From Prevotella sp. (lineage in GTDB: Bacteria; Bacteroidota; Bacteroidia; Bacteroidales; Bacteroidaceae): a stretch of 54,393 bases of DNA. The stretch spans positions 1 to 54,393 of the forward strand of contig JAGCDO010000014.1 in assembly GCA_017651265.1 (NCBI GenBank), in the 5' to 3' direction. Shown here piece by piece: positions 1,279 through 53,951 of the stretch (positions are counted from its first letter, which is position 1; each line of letters starts with the position of its first letter). Under the pieces are notes generated by a model. It did not search any database. It was not told the origin of the DNA and saw nothing but the letters and a program-made list of their open reading frames with translations. A program made the translations under genes and the position numbers.

Positions 1279-2343
1279 ATGGCACAAAAAGTAAGAATCA
1301 AAGACATCGCAGAGAAGTCGGGAGTATCTGTTGGAACTGTTGACCGTATCCTTCACAACCGTCCAAACGTATCGAAATCAGCACGAGAGAAAGTGGAAAA
1401 GGTCCTGAAGGAAATCAACTACCAGCCCAACATGTATGCAAGTGCATTAGCATACAACAAATCGTACACCTTTTATATCATAATGCCTATGCACGAGAGC
1501 GAAGCATACTGGCAAGAGATTGAAGAAGGTGCCATGAAGGCCTGCGATGCTCGCCGTGACTTCCACATCGACGTACAGGTGGCCTATTACACAAGGTTAG
1601 ACACAAAGACCTTCTCGGAGACTTTCCAAGATGTGCTTGACAAGGAACCCAACGGTGTGATTGTCGTTCCCAGCGAGTTCGAGATTACCAAGCACTATAC
1701 CGATCTTTTACACGAACGCAATATCCCATTCATCCTGCTTGACTCTTACATGCCCGATTTGAATCCCCTCTCTTTCTTCGGTCAGGATTCTTTCTGCAGT
1801 GGTTACTTCGCAGCAAAGATGCTGATGCTTGTGGCCGCTCAGGAAAAAAGCATCATGCTGATGAAGCAGACCAAAGACGGAAAAGTGGCGAGCAAACAGC
1901 AGGATAACCGCGAGGTGGGATTCCGACATTATATGAAAGACCATTTCCCCGCTGTGCAGATCGTTGAGCTCGACCTTCCGCTCGAAGCCGACAGGAGTGA
2001 GTATGATGCGATGATTGAATCTTTCTTCAACAAACATCCTGAAGTACATCACTGCATCACCATGTGTTCCAAAGCACATATCGTAGGTGATTTCCTGTTG
2101 CGAACGAACCGCAGGAATGTGCAGATCATGGGTTATGATATGGTGGGAAAGAATGCGAACTGTCTGCGTCAGGGTTCCATCTCATTCCTCATTGCCCAGC
2201 ATGCCTTCATGCAAGGATATAATTGTGTGGACACCTTGTTCAAGGCTATTGTACTGAAACAGAAGGTTGACCCCATCAACTACATGCCTATTGAACTTCT
2301 CACCAAAGAGAATGTAGATTTCTACCGTAGAACGCAGTTGTAA
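1279..2343 (+). CDS. LacI-family transcriptional regulator
   Basis: 354-residue DNA-binding regulator. The N-terminus carries the LacI helix-turn-helix (KVRIKDIAEKSGVSVGTVDRIL, residues 4-25) and the hinge region (VEKVLKEINYQPNMYASAL), followed by a periplasmic-binding-protein-like sensor domain (YTFYIIMP onwards). The ATG at 1279 was chosen because the extra upstream residues from a GTG at 1243 are not part of the HTH domain. The stop is 11 bp before uxaA, so it probably heads that operon and controls it and the divergent kdgK; a hexuronate or KDG is the likely effector, by context only. The effector-domain sequence alone does not identify the ligand. Confidence 0.88.
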   Translation: MAQKVRIKDIAEKSGVSVGTVDRILHNRPNVSKSAREKVEKVLKEINYQPNMYASALAYNKSYTFYIIMPMHESEAYWQEIEEGAMKACDARRDFHIDVQVAYYTRLDTKTFSETFQDVLDKEPNGVIVVPSEFEITKHYTDLLHERNIPFILLDSYMPDLNPLSFFGQDSFCSGYFAAKMLMLVAAQEKSIMLMKQTKDGKVASKQQDNREVGFRHYMKDHFPAVQIVELDLPLEADRSEYDAMIESFFNKHPEVHHCITMCSKAHIVGDFLLRTNRRNVQIMGYDMVGKNANCLRQGSISFLIAQHAFMQGYNCVDTLFKAIVLKQKVDPINYMPIELLTKENVDFYRRTQL

Positions 2344-2354
2344 TTGTTGTATCT

Positions 2355-3851
2355 ATGCAACAGTCATCAACCATCAGAATCAACCCTGCCGACACCGTCA
2401 TCGTTTGTCTGCGACCCATGCACCAAGGGGAAATCATCGAGGTGGATCATCAACAGATCACCTTGTTGGAGGATGTTCCCATGGGCCATAAGGTACTTAT
2501 ACGAGATACGCAGAAAGACGAAGACATCATCAAATACGGCTACCCTATTGGTCATGCGTGTCAGGATTTGAAAGCAGGTCAATGGGTGAATGAACATAAC
2601 CTTGCGACGAACCTGACCGGTAAGCTTACCTACGAATATCATCCCGTAGAAGCAAAGGCAAATGCTCTACCCGACCATCGTACATTCAACGGATATGTCC
2701 GTAAGAACGGCGAGGTGGGAATCAGGAACGAAATATGGATTGTCCCCACTGTGGGATGTGTAAATGGTGTGGCGGAACGACTGGCTCGTCAGCTGGAAGA
2801 AGAAACCAAATTAGAAGGTATTGATGCCGTGTTTGCCTGGCATCACAACTACGGTTGCTCTCAGTTGGGCGATGACCATGAGAATACCCGTAAGATCTTG
2901 CGTGACATTGTTTTACATCCCAATGCTGGAGGAGTACTTGTAGTTTCATTAGGATGCGAGAACAACCAGCCGGACACCTTTATGCAGTCGCTAGGTGACT
3001 ATGATCAGGAGCGTATCAAGCTATTAGTTACACAGCAGGTTGATGGTGATGAGATAGAAGACGGTATGAAGATGCTGCGCGAGCTGTATCAAGTGGCGAA
3101 AAAAGACCAACGACAGGCGTGCCCTATCCATGAGCTGCGTGTAGGATTGAAATGTGGTGGTTCTGACGGATTCAGCGGTATTACTGCCAATCCTCTTGTA
3201 GGTGCGTTCAGCGACTATCTCGTAGGACAAGGTGGTACGAGTATTCTGACTGAAGTACCTGAGATGTTTGGCGCTGAAACCATCTTGATGAATCGTTGCG
3301 AGACACCAGCGTTATTTGAGCAAACTGTGAAACTCATCAATGATTTCAAGGACTATTACCTGAGTCATGGTGAACCTGTGGGTGAAAACCCTTCACCAGG
3401 GAACAAGGCTGGTGGAATCTCTACCCTGGAGGAAAAAGCACTCGGTTGTACCCAGAAATGCGGAAGCATGCCTGTTAAGGGCGTGTTAGATTATGGTGAC
3501 CGACTGTCCGTCAAGGGTCTTAACCTCTTATCTGCTCCAGGAAACGACCTGGTGGCATCAACCGCCTTAGCGGCAGCTGGCTGTCAGATGGTGCTCTTCA
3601 CAACGGGACGTGGTACACCCTTCGGTACCTTCATCCCTACCATGAAGATCTCCACCAACAACGAACTGTTCAACAATAAGCCGAAATGGATTGACTTCAA
3701 TGCCGGTGAACTGTTGGAAGGAAAGTCGATGGAAGTCGTACTCCACGCATTCATCGACAAAATTATAGCCATTGCTAATGGTGAGAGGACACATAACGAA
3801 GAGAATGGCTATCGGGAAATATCTATCTTTAAAAACGGCGTGACATTATAA
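2355..3851 (+). CDS. uxaA: Altronate dehydratase (UxaA family)
   Basis: Expected to dehydrate D-altronate to KDG in galacturonate catabolism, which KDG kinase would then phosphorylate. The 498-residue length matches full-length UxaA (about 495 in E. coli). It has the N-terminal SAF-like domain (about residues 10-90) and then the UxaA catalytic region with GEVGIRNEIWIVPTVGCVN, HNYGCSQLG, SLGCENNQ and LKCGGSDGFSGITANP; conserved Cys and His residues in these segments are probably metal ligands. The ATG at 2355 follows the regulator stop by 11 bp and the next gene starts 4 bp after this stop, so it is operonic. A related sugar-acid dehydratase such as galactarate dehydratase is a less likely alternative. 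Confidence 0.88.
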   Translation: MQQSSTIRINPADTVIVCLRPMHQGEIIEVDHQQITLLEDVPMGHKVLIRDTQKDEDIIKYGYPIGHACQDLKAGQWVNEHNLATNLTGKLTYEYHPVEAKANALPDHRTFNGYVRKNGEVGIRNEIWIVPTVGCVNGVAERLARQLEEETKLEGIDAVFAWHHNYGCSQLGDDHENTRKILRDIVLHPNAGGVLVVSLGCENNQPDTFMQSLGDYDQERIKLLVTQQVDGDEIEDGMKMLRELYQVAKKDQRQACPIHELRVGLKCGGSDGFSGITANPLVGAFSDYLVGQGGTSILTEVPEMFGAETILMNRCETPALFEQTVKLINDFKDYYLSHGEPVGENPSPGNKAGGISTLEEKALGCTQKCGSMPVKGVLDYGDRLSVKGLNLLSAPGNDLVASTALAAAGCQMVLFTTGRGTPFGTFIPTMKISTNNELFNNKPKWIDFNAGELLEGKSMEVVLHAFIDKIIAIANGERTHNEENGYREISIFKNGVTL

Positions 3852-49521: not shown

Positions 49522-49887
49522 TTATTCTTCTACGATTTCAAAGTTTTTCCAATATTCGGCAGACCGATAAGCATCTTTTGCTCCTTTAGGAACGTATAAG
49601 ATGGTCTTAGCGGTCTGTTTTGGTTTTTCGAAACGCCATGTTGACAAGTTCGCATGACCTTCCGATTTATTGATAACCACTTTAGGTGGTATTGTCCCTT
49701 GGCAATGTACCGCCTCCATCATATCGCAATTATAAAGAATCCCTTCTCCAATGGTTGTGAGGTTTTTGGGGAGCGTGATGGAGGGAAGACTTACGCAACA
49801 ATCGAAAGCAGATTCTCCTATATGAGTGACGCTGTTAGGAATGCTCACTGTGTTCAGGTTTCTACATTTATAGAATTTGTAACACGT
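49522..49887 (-). pseudogene. Truncated BspA-like LRR protein remnant
   Basis: The C-terminal about 120 residues of a BspA-type LRR_5 protein (FYKCRNLNTVSIPNSVTHIG then FDCCVSLPSITLPKNLTTIG, ending FEIVEE). The reading frame is closed upstream by in-frame stops (TAA near 49893, TGA just beyond) and no signal peptide or further repeats follow, so it is a 5'-truncated relic. An ATG in the frame at 49848 could only make a fragment. It marks a rearranged boundary next to the AT-rich island. 49894-50144 has no supported gene. Confidence 0.75.
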
Positions 49888-50144
49888 TTAATTTCAGTAA
49901 CTTTTGTTTGAAACGGTAGAAAAGTGATGGCGAAGATTCTGTAGAAGATGGAAAAGAGCAAGATTTAACTTATTTAACCTTTTGTAACAGGAAATACAAG
50001 TGCGAATGACAAGATCTGTCTTACCACTTGCACTGCCCAAAAACTGAGTAATACAAATAAGTCAATTGTGCGAAAAATATTTCAAATAATCAGTATTTAA
50101 AAAGAATTAACATCGCTTTTCGTGTGTGTGTGCGAACAATTTAC

Positions 50145-50152
50145 TAAATTTG
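50145..50152 (+). promoter_or_regulatory. Promoter -7 box for the ATPase/TOPRIM/GHKL operon
   Basis: TAAATTTG, 61 bp before the preferred start at 50213. The site TGTGTGCGAACAATT (50127-50141) lies just upstream, between the expected -33 and -7 positions. Confidence 0.6.
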
Positions 50153-50212
50153 CAATTAATTTGAGCGAACTCATTTAATATTATGAGTCCACTAATAAAT
50201 ATTTGTTATCGT

Positions 50213-51415
50213 ATGATAAAAGAACTAATTATTCGTGACTTCTTCTCGTTTAAGGGAGAGCACACAATCGAATTGAACACAGGTGTTAATATCCTTGTGG
50301 GTGTTAATGGAAGTGGTAAGACTTCCTTTCTGAATGCTGTCACTATGCTGTATGAGGGTATTGCTGGTGGCGGTTTGTCAGCTTTGTTTCGGCAATGGGG
50401 CACATACAACGCAATAGTTAATGCATGTGGTGAACAAAAGCCTGATTGTTTTAGTGTAACTTATGTTTTCGATGCGGATGTTTTGAGGAAACTTGTTTCG
50501 GCTTCTCCTTTTAAGAAGGATGTTTACTACAAGATAACGGTATTTCCTATAGGTGACGGTACAAGTTACTCACTCTGTGAAACGCTTTATTCTGAGGATA
50601 GCAGAGGTAAGAAAAAAACATTCAGTTATCTTGAATTTCGTAATGGCATCGGACAAATCTCGGTTCGTACAAAAAGCGGTATAGAAGTGGAAAAATATGA
50701 AGGCAGTATGCTGTCTGCTCAGGAATTGGTGCTTAGACAGATTACTGATCCTCAAAGATATCTGCCGTCTTTTGTTGTGAGAGAGGCTATAAATGCGATT
50801 GCAGGATATTCCAAGTTTAATTTTGACAAAGTTCGTCAGCCTGCTGAGGCTAATGACATTAAACGCTTGATAAGCACTGGTGAGAACCTGAGTCAGTTGC
50901 TAAGTAATCTAAATAACAACTATACATTCCAGTATGAGAAAATAAGGGAATGCCTGAGCGACATAAATCCGAATTTCACAGGAATCGGTTATAACGTTTT
51001 TGGTAGCAGGTTGTACCTGTCCCTTCGCGAGAAAAATTTGTCACATGCCATAGATGCTCTTCATATGTCAGATGGTACCTTGAAGTACCTGCTTTTATTG
51101 AGCATCTTCCATAATCCGGAGAGAGGTGCACTTATTGATATTGACGAACCAGAAGCATGTCTGCATCCAGACATGATCCGCTCAGTGGCAAAGATGATGA
51201 AGAATGCAGCCAAGACATCACAGATTATTGTGGCAACACATTCCGCTCTCTTGTTGAATGCATTCGAACTAGATGATATTCTGGTATTCGAAAAGAATGG
51301 CAGGAACGAAACTCAAATCATGCGTTATAGCGAAGATGATTTTGAGAATCGCGAGGGTGAACTGCTCCCTGGTCAGTTATGGTTGAATGGTGAGATTGGC
51401 GGCAAAAGATGGTAG
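50213..51415 (+). CDS. AAA15/OLD-type ABC ATPase
   Basis: 400 residues with a full ABC/SMC-type ATPase layout: Walker A GVNGSGKT (residues 30-37), the signature-like MSDGTLKYLLLL, Walker B GALIDIDEPEACLHP and the H-loop IIVATHSALLL near the C-terminus. It lacks a coiled-coil hinge of SMC length. Such AAA15 ATPases occur in OLD, PARIS and AbiL-type defence systems, where they partner a TOPRIM-like protein, as here. The ATG at 50213 (MIKELIIRDFFSFKG) matches the family start better than 50183. The stop overlaps the next gene by 7 bp. Confidence 0.85.
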   Translation: MIKELIIRDFFSFKGEHTIELNTGVNILVGVNGSGKTSFLNAVTMLYEGIAGGGLSALFRQWGTYNAIVNACGEQKPDCFSVTYVFDADVLRKLVSASPFKKDVYYKITVFPIGDGTSYSLCETLYSEDSRGKKKTFSYLEFRNGIGQISVRTKSGIEVEKYEGSMLSAQELVLRQITDPQRYLPSFVVREAINAIAGYSKFNFDKVRQPAEANDIKRLISTGENLSQLLSNLNNNYTFQYEKIRECLSDINPNFTGIGYNVFGSRLYLSLREKNLSHAIDALHMSDGTLKYLLLLSIFHNPERGALIDIDEPEACLHPDMIRSVAKMMKNAAKTSQIIVATHSALLLNAFELDDILVFEKNGRNETQIMRYSEDDFENREGELLPGQLWLNGEIGGKRW

Positions 51416-52098
51416 TCAATGTGTATGTGGAAGGTGGTGTTATCAATGGAAATGTTGATGCCACAACGAGCAATAACTCCGAGGCTTTACGTGAGGAACT
51501 AAATCGCTTCATGCAACGGGCGTTAAACCGTGATGATATCAGCATTGTAGTGAAGAAATGCTCTAGTTATAAAGAAGCTGCGAAACAGTTCATCAAAGCA
51601 GCGGATAATGAAGAAAACTATCTATATGTAGATCTTGACCGTAAGCCTGAGTTGAGGGGCGAGTGGTTCAAGAGCCTGTCGGACGATGGAATTGAAATGT
51701 CGCAGAATAAGGTAGAACACGTAAGTTTCTGGATTCAGGAAATGGAAGCTTGGTTCTTGAAACAACCTGAAGCTATTGAGCTATGGGCAGAAGATGAGAA
51801 CTTTATACGTAAACCTGGACAAAATAGTCCGTTATCCGAACATCCTTCTATCAAAAATAAAGATATTGAGCGTTTACAGCAGAAGGCATCGTATTTGATG
51901 GGGGTGATTCTGCGACAGGTTTTTTCTCCACAAGAAAAAGGGAAGAAGAGTGCATCTGGCAAAGTACGTGACTTGAAGTATGGCAAGTTGCGTCATGCTC
52001 CAGGAATCATTGCTCACTTGAATCCTACAGACTTGATCTCGAAGGATAATGAATTGAAAATTTTCTGTGTGAAGGTTAAAAGTAAAACAAGCAAATAA
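51409..52098 (+). CDS. TOPRIM-like (DUF4276-type) protein
   Basis: 229 residues with the pattern of a TOPRIM-like nuclease fold: Glu8 in NVYVEGG on the first strand, the DxD pair (Asp75, Asp77) in YLYVDLDRK, and Glu111/Glu113 in FWIQEMEAWFLKQ, the layout seen in DUF4276/RloB-type proteins. The C-terminal part (KGKKSASGKVRDLKYGKLRHAPG) is basic. It starts 7 bp before the ATPase stop, so production of the two is coupled. Similarity is motif-level; it could lack nuclease activity. Confidence 0.7.
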   Translation: MVVNVYVEGGVINGNVDATTSNNSEALREELNRFMQRALNRDDISIVVKKCSSYKEAAKQFIKAADNEENYLYVDLDRKPELRGEWFKSLSDDGIEMSQNKVEHVSFWIQEMEAWFLKQPEAIELWAEDENFIRKPGQNSPLSEHPSIKNKDIERLQQKASYLMGVILRQVFSPQEKGKKSASGKVRDLKYGKLRHAPGIIAHLNPTDLISKDNELKIFCVKVKSKTSK

Positions 52099-52106
52099 AG
52101 TCCTAC

Positions 52107-53951
52107 ATGGAAGTTAACATTCAAAAAGCGGTTAAGATGTTTTTCTCGAATTCTTCATTCGAGATGATATATAATGAGGCACTAGCAAATGCTTTGGATG
52201 CTGATGCAAACGAGATTCGTATAAACATATCTTTACCAGACCCAACACAACTCCATAATCTACAACTAACAATTTCAGATAATGGCGTTGGATTTGACGA
52301 TTTTAGGTTCGGGAAATTCAGTAAACTCTTTGATGTTGAAGAACAATCACACAAAGGTTTAGGCAGACTGGTTTATCTCTGTTATTTTGAGAGAGTACAC
52401 ATTGAAAGCACCTACAATGGCGGAACAAAGAAACGCACATTCACATTCGACGATGGATTCAACGGAGAAAATACCGTAGAAGACACCGAACCTTATCCAT
52501 GTGGTTCTTCTTTGACTATGCAGGGATTTGCAGGAGAAAGACTTCACCGCAATGATAACATCAATCCAAATTACATCAAGTCTTTGCTGATGGAGAATTT
52601 TTACATGCGGTTGTATAAAAAGAAACTTAATGAAGAAAGAATAAGAGTAATTATTGAATCTCATGTAGGAGGCAGCCGAGTTGAAGCGATTGTTGATACT
52701 GATGATATGCCCGATTTTTCTATTCTTCCATTAGACCATCAACTTGATTTGTTCAATTCAATTGACTTGTATTACTCTGTAAGAGAGACAGATGAAGCGG
52801 GCAAGAAACCTATCACAGCAATCGCAGTGGATGATCGTTGTCATCAAGTTGCAATTATTGATGACGAGAATCTTCCTGTAGGATATGAGATGATCTTCTT
52901 GCTGATATCTGAATCATTTCAAGGTGCCATCGACGAAGCCAGGCAGAATCTTACTTTGTCAGGTAATGATCTCGGAAATATCAAGCGCCTCTTTAGAGAA
53001 GGAATTGCTAGTATTATCAATGAAAGATTTCCGAGAATCGCAGCCGCTAATAGGGAACGAGAAGAGTATTTGAAAAATACCTATCCCCATCTTAGTGGAT
53101 ATTTCAAAACAAGTGATATCGGATTTTCGTCACATAATGACATATTGAAAGATGCTCAAGAGCAGTTCTTTAGGGACCAACGTGAAATTCTATCAGCAAC
53201 AACATTATCAGATGAGCAATATGAGAAATCGTTGCAGTTGGCAGCACGTTCTTTAGCTGAATACATTTTATTCCGTCAGAATGTTATTTCCAAAATGAAG
53301 GTGTTGGATAGCACCAATTTGGAGGCAGATCTTCATAACTTGATTGCACCTAAGGGAAGTGAGTTCCAAGAAGGAGAGCTTTATAAAGATTTATATCGCA
53401 ACAATGTTTGGCTTCTCGATGATAAATTCATGAGTTACTGCACTGTGTTAAGCGAAGCTGAGATGAGCAAGGTGATAGATGTGATTACGGAGGGAGAAGT
53501 CAAGGATAACGACGATGATAGACCCGACATAACACTATTTTTCTCTGCTGATCCGACGAAAGATAATCGGATGTTGGACGTTGTGGTTGTTGAACTGAAG
53601 AGATTGGGTATAACTCCTGAACAGAATTCAATTGTAGAGTTCCAGTTGGATACCAGAACTCAACGCCTTGCTGAATACTACGGACGTCGTATCCAGCGGA
53701 TGTGGTTTTATGGAATTGTAGAGTTTACAGATAAATATAGAATGCACCTTGTTAATAATGGCTACAATCCTTTATTTTCAAATGGAAGCGTTTATTTTAA
53801 GTCCAAACCTGTCTATACGGATCTCGAGAAGTCATTCAGTGTAGTACAGAACTCGTACATTATGGATTTTAAGGCATTAGCAGAGGATGCCAATGCACGC
53901 AATGAAACTTTCTTGAAGGTTTTGAAACACCAATTTGAAAATCCTCAATAA
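52107..53951 (+). CDS. GHKL ATPase with C-terminal PD-(D/E)xK-like domain
   Basis: 614 residues. Residues 1-110 have the GHKL (Hsp90/MutL/MORC) ATP-binding motifs: N-box EALANALDAD with Glu24 and Asn28, G1 box DNGVGFD (Asp58, Gly60, Gly62) and G2-like HKGLGRLVYL. A transducer-like middle follows (to about 310), then a helical region. Near the C-terminus a possible nuclease core is RPDITLFF (Asp about 474) with VVVELKR (Glu about 496, Lys about 498), fitting D-(x)n-ExK, followed by TQRLAEYYGR. It begins 8 bp after the TOPRIM-like gene. GHKL ATPases fused to or beside nucleases are known in bacterial conflict systems. The nuclease assignment is tentative. Confidence 0.75.
   Translation: MEVNIQKAVKMFFSNSSFEMIYNEALANALDADANEIRINISLPDPTQLHNLQLTISDNGVGFDDFRFGKFSKLFDVEEQSHKGLGRLVYLCYFERVHIESTYNGGTKKRTFTFDDGFNGENTVEDTEPYPCGSSLTMQGFAGERLHRNDNINPNYIKSLLMENFYMRLYKKKLNEERIRVIIESHVGGSRVEAIVDTDDMPDFSILPLDHQLDLFNSIDLYYSVRETDEAGKKPITAIAVDDRCHQVAIIDDENLPVGYEMIFLLISESFQGAIDEARQNLTLSGNDLGNIKRLFREGIASIINERFPRIAAANREREEYLKNTYPHLSGYFKTSDIGFSSHNDILKDAQEQFFRDQREILSATTLSDEQYEKSLQLAARSLAEYILFRQNVISKMKVLDSTNLEADLHNLIAPKGSEFQEGELYKDLYRNNVWLLDDKFMSYCTVLSEAEMSKVIDVITEGEVKDNDDDRPDITLFFSADPTKDNRMLDVVVVELKRLGITPEQNSIVEFQLDTRTQRLAEYYGRRIQRMWFYGIVEFTDKYRMHLVNNGYNPLFSNGSVYFKSKPVYTDLEKSFSVVQNSYIMDFKALAEDANARNETFLKVLKHQFENPQ

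Follow-up and report, generated by a model that had tools for sequence, protein, structure and literature searches.

Three tightly coupled genes near the end of the window (the whole stretch of DNA analysed, 54,393 nucleotides of a Prevotella sp. contig, JAGCDO010000014.1) constitute a unit that moves as one block, in which a pair matching the PADLOC candidate system HEC-01 is followed by a GHKL ATPase with a nuclease-like C-terminus. The pair (HEC-01A/B) and the architecture of the third protein were already known separately, and what is new is their joining in one travelling block. By family, the trio is a well-supported candidate for anti-phage defense. Our preferred reading, held tentatively and at somewhat less than an even chance, is that of a mobile two-module unit in which direct DNA cutting would be backed by an abortive alarm. 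The features are located as follows.

50062..50182, plus strand: upstream leader moving with the trio (seen by blastn comparison with L007, L008 and L009)
50145..50152, plus strand: promoter-like -7 box TAAATTTG before gene 1, pattern TANNTTTG
50183..51415, plus strand: gene 1, 410 aa, ABC/OLD-type ATPase, HEC-01A; the start may be 50213
51409..52098, plus strand: gene 2, 229 aa, small HEC-01B protein (DUF4276-like), with a TOPRIM likeness only at the level of family and motif
52107..53951, plus strand: gene 3, 614 aa, GHKL ATPase with C-terminal nuclease-like domain, paraMORC3 type
52158..52493, plus strand: GHKL ATPase domain of gene 3 (residues 18-129), HATPase_c_3 match
53322..53720, plus strand: nuclease-like core of gene 3 (residues 406-538), with E406, D474, E496-x-K498 and Q513

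The three open reading frames are co-directional, with an overlap of 7 bp between genes 1 and 2 and a gap of 8 bp between genes 2 and 3, exactly the coupling reported in an initial annotation made from the DNA letters. The same annotation described the block as more AT-rich than its neighbors, which the composition confirms: the GC content of the trio is 0.395 versus 0.474 for positions 1-50182, where the lowest value among 465 overlapping trio-sized segments is 0.430. The block was originally started at 50145, the first base of the TAAATTTG box, which we take to be the Bacteroidetes -7 promoter motif. This box is identical in L008 and differs at one or two positions in L009 and L007, and the pattern TANNTTTG occurs 48 times in the window versus 29 expected, which alone is weak evidence for a promoter box. 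As judged by alignment, gene 1 probably begins at 50213 (MIKEL...), since that is where the likeness among the four known copies sets in, after a variable leader. Upstream of the trio lies a short minus-strand frame (49522-49848); downstream, between 53952 and the end of the contig (54393), there are short frames only, and because one of them, on the minus strand, overruns that end, a truncated gene is possible there.

Co-occurrence of the trio in other genomes, a point raised in the initial annotation, was found in three other contigs (L007, L008 and L009, all MAG or uncultured-isolate records, with DNA identities of 75-81%), giving four copies only; the contig L009, 4.4 kb long, is recorded under a different phylum and may be misbinned. 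In all three, the gene order is the same and the first overlap is also 7 bp, with gaps of 18, 20 and 17 bp, respectively, between genes 2 and 3. Because order, overlap and short gaps recur in this way, the arrangement is more than a coincidence. By blastn, the similarity to the window starts at 50062 in L007, at 50097 in L008 and at 50199 in L009, and in each it ends no more than about 10 bp from the stop codon of gene 3. The match in the short contig L009 runs border to border. Since the shared borders are sharp and the flanks of the two longer contigs, L007 and L008, are unrelated to the window, the trio is a real unit. Its genes are under purifying selection: dN/dS is about 0.04 in gene 1 and lies at 0.08-0.12 in gene 2; in gene 3 it is 0.06, a value that comes from the single pair with unsaturated dS.

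Gene 3 has a history different from that of genes 1-2 and has been exchanged separately: the informative sites (window+L007 / window+L008 / L007+L008) number 40/19/14 in gene 1, 21/15/13 in gene 2 and 41/46/83 in gene 3, and the pattern of genes 1+2 versus gene 3 gives p = 1.3e-6. This argues against the three proteins forming one machine, with gene 3 as an obligate third subunit and the pair regulated by, or recruiting, the GHKL nuclease in one complex. The ATPase/DUF4276-like pair also exists without gene 3, which is carried by 0/27 pair or ATPase loci elsewhere, and relatives of gene 3 are found alone or with restriction-modification genes. A single complex would nevertheless be consistent with the tight operon in 4/4 copies (7-bp overlap, gaps of 8-20 bp) and with the finding of no trio-clade copy lacking gene 3 or the pair, in searches able to show one. 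It is also favored by the direct pairing of OLD-type ATPases with PD-(D/E)xK nucleases described in parts of the literature for WonAB and elsewhere. On balance, we consider such a machine unlikely, with a real chance of being correct.

Regarding the individual proteins, gene 1 matches PADLOC HEC-01A (PDLC04177) over residues 10-410 (4.4e-63), as well as AAA_21 (7.8e-25) and AAA_15 (1e-16) in Pfam, in agreement with its original assignment as an AAA15/ABC ATPase. With numbering from 50213, G30, N32, S34, G35 and K36 (Walker A), D287/G288 (signature-like), D311/E312 and H343 are invariant in 11/11 sequences. A sequence search of solved structures retrieved PtuA, Rad50, AriA and SMC-type chains, and a search of viral contigs gave no match. 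Gene 2 matches HEC-01B (PDLC04201, 2e-13), with the best stretch covering residues 2-124 only, and scores 29.2 bits (1.3e-6) against DUF4276, under the cut-off of 30.2; both matches support its description as a DUF4276-type protein. E8, G9, G10 and E113 are invariant in 9/9 sequences, and D75-L-D77 is invariant in the four trio copies, though not across all nine. By family and by what we take to be the TOPRIM motifs, gene 2 appears TOPRIM-like. Its profile retrieved from the PDB two designed proteins and a tautomerase and no natural nuclease, and found nothing in viral contigs; gene 2 had no match in plasmids, and a literature search for DUF4276 gave no result.

Genes 1-2 thus match both HEC-01 models and are adjacent, ordered and overlapping. 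We take the HEC-01 label in PADLOC to denote a two-gene system; in this block, the pair is followed, after a gap of 8 bp, by a third gene that travels along with it. The likeness to OLD, PARIS and AbiL pointed out in the initial annotation holds as similarity, and beyond it a named pair is matched. PARIS (AriA + AriB) likewise has an OLD-type ABC ATPase and a TOPRIM nuclease as separate genes, but AriA is a weaker match for gene 1 (2.2e-27) than HEC-01A is, and gene 2 has no AriB match up to E 1. PARIS is not known to contain a GHKL protein. Similarly, AbiL (AbiLi + AbiLii) has a two-gene layout and gene 1 matches AbiLi (8.3e-31), but again lower than HEC-01A, and gene 2 has no AbiLii match. 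Gabija, an ATPase fused to TOPRIM plus the GajB helicase, was rejected, gene 2 being separate and small and the block having no helicase match. The same applies to MADS (MAD3 similarity of gene 1 at 97.5 bits versus the NCBIfam cut-off of 420; no MADS model matched by genes 2 and 3) and to the BbrUII/HgiDII restriction enzymes (NF050001 at 22.3 bits versus the cut-off of 550, residues 20-64 only).

Gene 3 is a GHKL ATPase, as first annotated. HATPase_c_3 is matched in Pfam (9e-7) and found in 17/17 relatives, and E24, N28, D58, N59, G60, G62, G84 and G86 are invariant in all 17 aligned relatives. The predicted structure (pLDDT 82.8, pTM 0.67) retrieved Hsp90, SMCHD1 and GyrB/ParE in Foldseek (best E 1.7e-11), with TM-scores of 0.28-0.34 by query length and an rmsd of at least 7 A for alignments of at least 377 columns (Hsp90, SMCHD1 and GyrB modules). 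These alignments bear on the S5 domain that comes after the GHKL domain in paraMORC3, which is at most a candidate in gene 3. Its profile matched, among solved structures, only MutL/PMS, histidine-kinase and anti-sigma ATPases (E 0.05-0.8), and a PADLOC scan gave no match. As for the possible nuclease end of the initial annotation, motifs speak for it, with E406, D474, E496-x-K498 and Q513 invariant in 17/17 aligned relatives, while the fold search of this domain gave 0/515 Foldseek matches at E <= 0.001, and HSDR_N was reached in Pfam at E 0.082 only. Because that search was non-significant, the putative nuclease fold is based on motifs and on strand order, which is helix-strand-strand-helix-strand in both models. 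We take the motif to be of the PD-(D/E)xK kind, with the residues presumably comparable to those of MutL or VcSduA. Gene 3 is probably a DNA-cutting protein.

This architecture fits paraMORC3 as described by Iyer et al. 2008 (PMC2292703), in which a GHKL ATPase carries an E-D-ExK domain at its C-terminus. Both share the N-terminal GHKL domain, the C-terminal E-D-ExK residues, the occurrence in Bacteroidetes, and the settings with restriction-modification genes or alone; passages of PMC2292703 do not mention paraMORC3 joined to an ABC-ATPase and DUF4276-like pair. In VcSduA (Shedu type I-D), likewise, a PD-(D/E)xK-type domain comes after the GHKL ATPase. According to passages of PMC12137116, this protein protects against phage with no sign that growth is arrested, and mutants of its ATPase or nuclease do not protect. 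As proteins of this organization were annotated as paraMORC3 (PMC12137116, same passages), gene 3 was tested for PF14082. No DUF4263/PF14082 was found among its Pfam matches up to E 1, PF14082 had no match in G000 at 1e-5, and hhalign against Shedu domains (sets of four and six) gave probabilities of 0.6% and 0.1%. VcSduA, which has DUF4263 and works as a single gene, is therefore kept as an analogy, and gene 3 is not assigned to Shedu (SduA). The initial annotation placed the third gene outside the OLD, PARIS and AbiL systems, and scans of the PADLOC, Pfam and NCBIfam models found no single named system with all three genes; the architecture of gene 3, in contrast, is a known one. The three-gene combination is not described in the literature searched, including parts of PMC8011034, PMC12839542 and PMC3710099, nor in passages of PMC3985639, PMC10568477, PMC12137116 and PMC2292703.

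The commoner settings of gene 3 relatives are near restriction-modification genes or alone. Seven adjoin methyltransferase genes or are one gene away from them (L010, L011, L012, L014, L016, L029 and L053, the readings for L011 and L016 being based on their similarity to L012 and L014), and an eighth (L032) adjoins a TaqI-like specificity-domain protein. Such neighbors would be expected if gene 3 were the cutting arm of a restriction-modification fragment with its methylase elsewhere in the genome, which we regard as improbable: a methyltransferase gene is absent from the block in 4/4 copies, and VcSduA protects as a single gene (passages of PMC12137116). Other relatives are the lone cargo of elements with conjugation-type genes (L113 and L114) or lie on a phage contig (L054), and since several stand alone, gene 3 may need no partner. 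Its profile had 12 matches in viral contigs (neighbors read for six: L053-L056, L058 and L059), the only close ones being L053 (64%) and L054 (42%); plasmids gave two weak matches and phages none. These lone relatives, together with the independent exchange of gene 3, would suit two defense modules that are adjacent by accident and carried together without a functional link. The 8-20 bp gaps kept across four copies point the other way, as does L017, where, in another clade, an AbiLi/PDC-M38-type ATPase (AbiLi-like, 2.2e-61), a DUF3226 protein and a gene 3 relative form a second such arrangement with a gap of 4 bp. We thus find accidental adjacency rather unlikely. Since the ATPase/DUF3226 pair of L017 is a different one and the clade another, a second joining of the gene 3 kind to an ATPase pair is suggested, and the same two kinds of module stand side by side a second time.

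For the preferred two-module unit, we infer all activities, the trigger and the division of labor. Gene 1 would sense infection and license gene 2, a putative small TOPRIM-like nuclease, and the HEC-01 pair would probably stop the infected cell, as PARIS does. Upon ATP binding, the GHKL dimer of gene 3 would close on DNA and the C-terminal domain would then cut, similar to what is proposed for VcSduA. In such layers, gene 3 would attack invading DNA and the pair would be the backup, perhaps once a phage blocks the first layer. Parts of the literature describe OLD/TOPRIM modules as a backup next to BREX and Fusobacterium AbiLii as toxic in E. coli. A stricter version, doubtful in our estimation, makes the pair a guard of gene 3: phage DNA would be cut by gene 3, and if a phage inhibitor inactivated this nuclease, the pair would respond by killing or arresting the cell. 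If true, the joining of paraMORC3-type proteins to different ATPase pairs, HEC-01 here and an AbiLi-type pair in L017, perhaps also in L027, would represent a convergent guard-plus-restriction assembly.

The block unites in one portable unit two poorly understood kinds of defense, the HEC-01-like ATPase/DUF4276 pairs and the paraMORC3 GHKL-nuclease proteins. It offers a compact test case for the idea that ATPase-TOPRIM pairs serve as a backup behind direct DNA-cutting systems, a role that, if true, would make it easier to understand why both kinds adjoin restriction-modification and other DNA-targeting systems.

The three genes, all on the plus strand, were located near the right end of the window, which spans an entire contig:

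50183-51415, plus strand, open reading frame of gene 1, an ABC/OLD-type ATPase
51409-52098, plus strand, open reading frame of gene 2, a DUF4276-like protein
52107-53951, plus strand, open reading frame of gene 3, a GHKL ATPase with a C-terminal nuclease-like domain

Genes 1 and 2 overlap by 7 bp and genes 2 and 3 are separated by 8 bp, which bears out the tight coupling proposed in the initial annotation. The AT-richness noted there was also seen, with a GC content of 0.395 for the trio versus 0.474 for the rest of the window, below the minimum (0.430) of the 465 overlapping windows of the same size in that remainder. Upstream, a seryl-tRNA synthetase-like gene (assigned by eye) is followed by a short minus-strand open frame (49522-49848) resembling the tail of a larger gene; downstream of gene 3 there are short frames only, one running past the contig end.

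The trio is a real, mobile unit. The scan of genome contigs for gene 3 returned 11 loci, and in three of them (contigs L007, L008, and L009) the pair formed by genes 1 and 2 lies directly before the gene 3 relative, so that the co-occurrence envisaged at the outset was found. The three proteins share 78-95% identity with those of the window, and the gaps between genes 2 and 3 are 8, 18, 20, and 17 bp in the window and the three other copies. DNA similarity to the window starts at 50062, 50097, and 50199 and stops at 53951, 53954, and 53941 (L007, L008, and L009, respectively), each end point lying within ~10 bp of where gene 3 terminates. Outside these borders, L007 and L008 resemble neither the window nor one another; L009, a 4.4-kb contig, shows little flank. 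Judged on unsaturated pairs, the trio genes are under purifying selection.

We have high confidence in the family identity of the proteins. Based on their sequences, genes 1 and 2 are a HEC-01 pair (a PADLOC candidate), given the matches to HEC-01A (E 4.4e-63; AbiLi, AriA, and others match more weakly) and HEC-01B (E 2e-13) and the conserved motifs. Gene 1 matches AAA_21 and AAA_15 in Pfam. Across all 11 aligned ATPases, even the distant protein from locus L017, there is no change in its Walker A, signature-like SDG, or Walker B motifs or in the H-loop histidine. Gene 2 scores one bit short of the Pfam cut-off for DUF4276; all nine aligned proteins share its E-G-G motif and an E further along without variation, and a D-x-D is invariant in the four trio copies, not across all nine. 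We would expect it to be a TOPRIM nuclease.

The GHKL fold proposed for gene 3 was supported by HATPase_c_3 matches in 17/17 aligned relatives and by the predicted structure (pLDDT 82.8), which matches GHKL modules of the Hsp90, SMCHD1, and gyrase type (best E 1.7e-11). TM-scores were low (0.28-0.34 by query length), so that a separate middle S5 domain is putative. The suggested PD-(D/E)xK end was upheld only in part: E406, D474, E496-x-K498, and Q513 are invariant in 17/17, and the models show the expected helix-strand-strand-helix-strand order at those residues, but the fold remains unproven, since the C-terminal domain alone gave 0/515 PDB matches at E <= 0.001 and its weak matches include many polymerases besides the restriction enzymes SgrAI and EcoO109I. 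Iyer et al. 2008 (PMC2292703) described this architecture, GHKL plus C-terminal E-D-ExK, for paraMORC3. The domains follow a similar order in VcSduA, a Shedu type I-D protein that protects against Drexlerviridae and is reported to lose this protection when either its ATPase or its nuclease is mutated (PMC12137116). The Shedu domain PF14082 was not matched in gene 3 by Pfam scan, search of the source genome, or profile comparison.

Both modules also occur apart. Counting the source genome, HEC-01B matches were found in 9/395 genomes of the class and gene 1 matches in 19/399 of the family, seven of these 19 with full-length matches at at least 51% identity. None of the 27 pair or ATPase loci (8 + 19) held a gene 3 relative (tblastn, two queries, E 1e-4; some contigs are short); 13 of them are distant ATPases, counted irrespective of partner status. 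A gene 2 relative is present in all six of the closest pairs, in one of them over only 91 residues. Few genomes carry a gene 3 relative at E 1e-30 (8/393 order, 4/299 genus, and 1/287 phylum genomes, the source genome in each count), and the neighbours of such relatives at other loci are as follows:

L010: type I restriction-modification
L011, L012: type II enzyme and C5 methyltransferase
L014, L016: LlaJI-like set
L029, L053: other methyltransferases
L032: TaqI-like specificity protein
L115: uncharacterised 332-aa protein
L013, L018, L019, L028, L030, L054, L113, L114: no evident partner, several limited by contig or locus ends

Loci L015 and L031 stop at contig ends. The 332-aa gene (L115:6438-7436) overlaps the gene 3 relative by 4 bp, has no Pfam family at E 0.001, and is a possible uncharacterised partner. 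The relative at L114:7369-8946, apparently truncated at its N-terminus (match from residue 41), lies by conjugation-type genes, a setting similar to that of the full-length relative in L113. Distant relatives (23-26%) occur on viral contigs (L055-L064); neighbours in L055, L056, L058, and L059 resemble phage structural or packaging genes, and the L056 protein matches phrog_6203. The contigs of L009, L013, and L015 are assigned to Gastranaerophilales, Campylobacteraceae, and Lachnospiraceae, respectively, reflecting either inter-phylum transfer or binning error.

A second ATPase pair accompanies a gene 3 relative in L017, where an ATPase (AbiLi 2.2e-61, also PDC-M38A) is followed by a DUF3226 protein (DUF3226 3.4e-12, PDC-M38B 5.5e-8), 4 bp later by this relative, and then by an HNH gene. 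A tree of 25 gene 3 proteins places L017 within a four-member clade (100/100), separate from that of the window's trio (100/100). The simplest reading is two independent joinings; alternatively, an older partnership may have swapped one ATPase pair for another. In L027, an ATPase and a DUF4276/RloB-like gene (1967-3774, minus strand) lie near a gene 3 relative on the same strand, separated from it by a nucleotidyltransferase gene and wider gaps.

Informative sites among the four trio copies, counted as window+L007/window+L008/L007+L008, group the window with L007 in gene 1 (40/19/14) and gene 2 (21/15/13), versus L007 with L008 in gene 3 (41/46/83; p = 1.3e-6 for genes 1 and 2 against gene 3). 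Identity between the window and L007 per 150 bp is 0.83-0.94 and drops to 0.66-0.81 from ~51,950 onward. By these site patterns, the history of gene 3 differs from that of genes 1 and 2, and homologous exchange between trios would account for this. The three genes could nonetheless form one machine, as in the described WonAB, where an OLD-type ATPase acts directly with a PD-(D/E)xK nuclease; the separate history fits such an obligate machine less well, and suits loosely coupled modules better without proving them.

We tentatively favor, at somewhat less than an even chance, a layered reading in which gene 3 cuts invading DNA directly and the pair serves as back-up, every step being drawn from relatives. 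Gene 3 would probably act as an ATP-driven clamp on DNA before cutting it, and gene 1 would probably detect a phage product and then switch on gene 2, which would damage nucleic acid; AriA is reported to license AriB in this way in PARIS (PMC12839542). Literature searches, with most subscription papers outside their scope, returned no description of the trio. It is a real, mobile unit that joins defence modules of known kinds in an apparently new combination.
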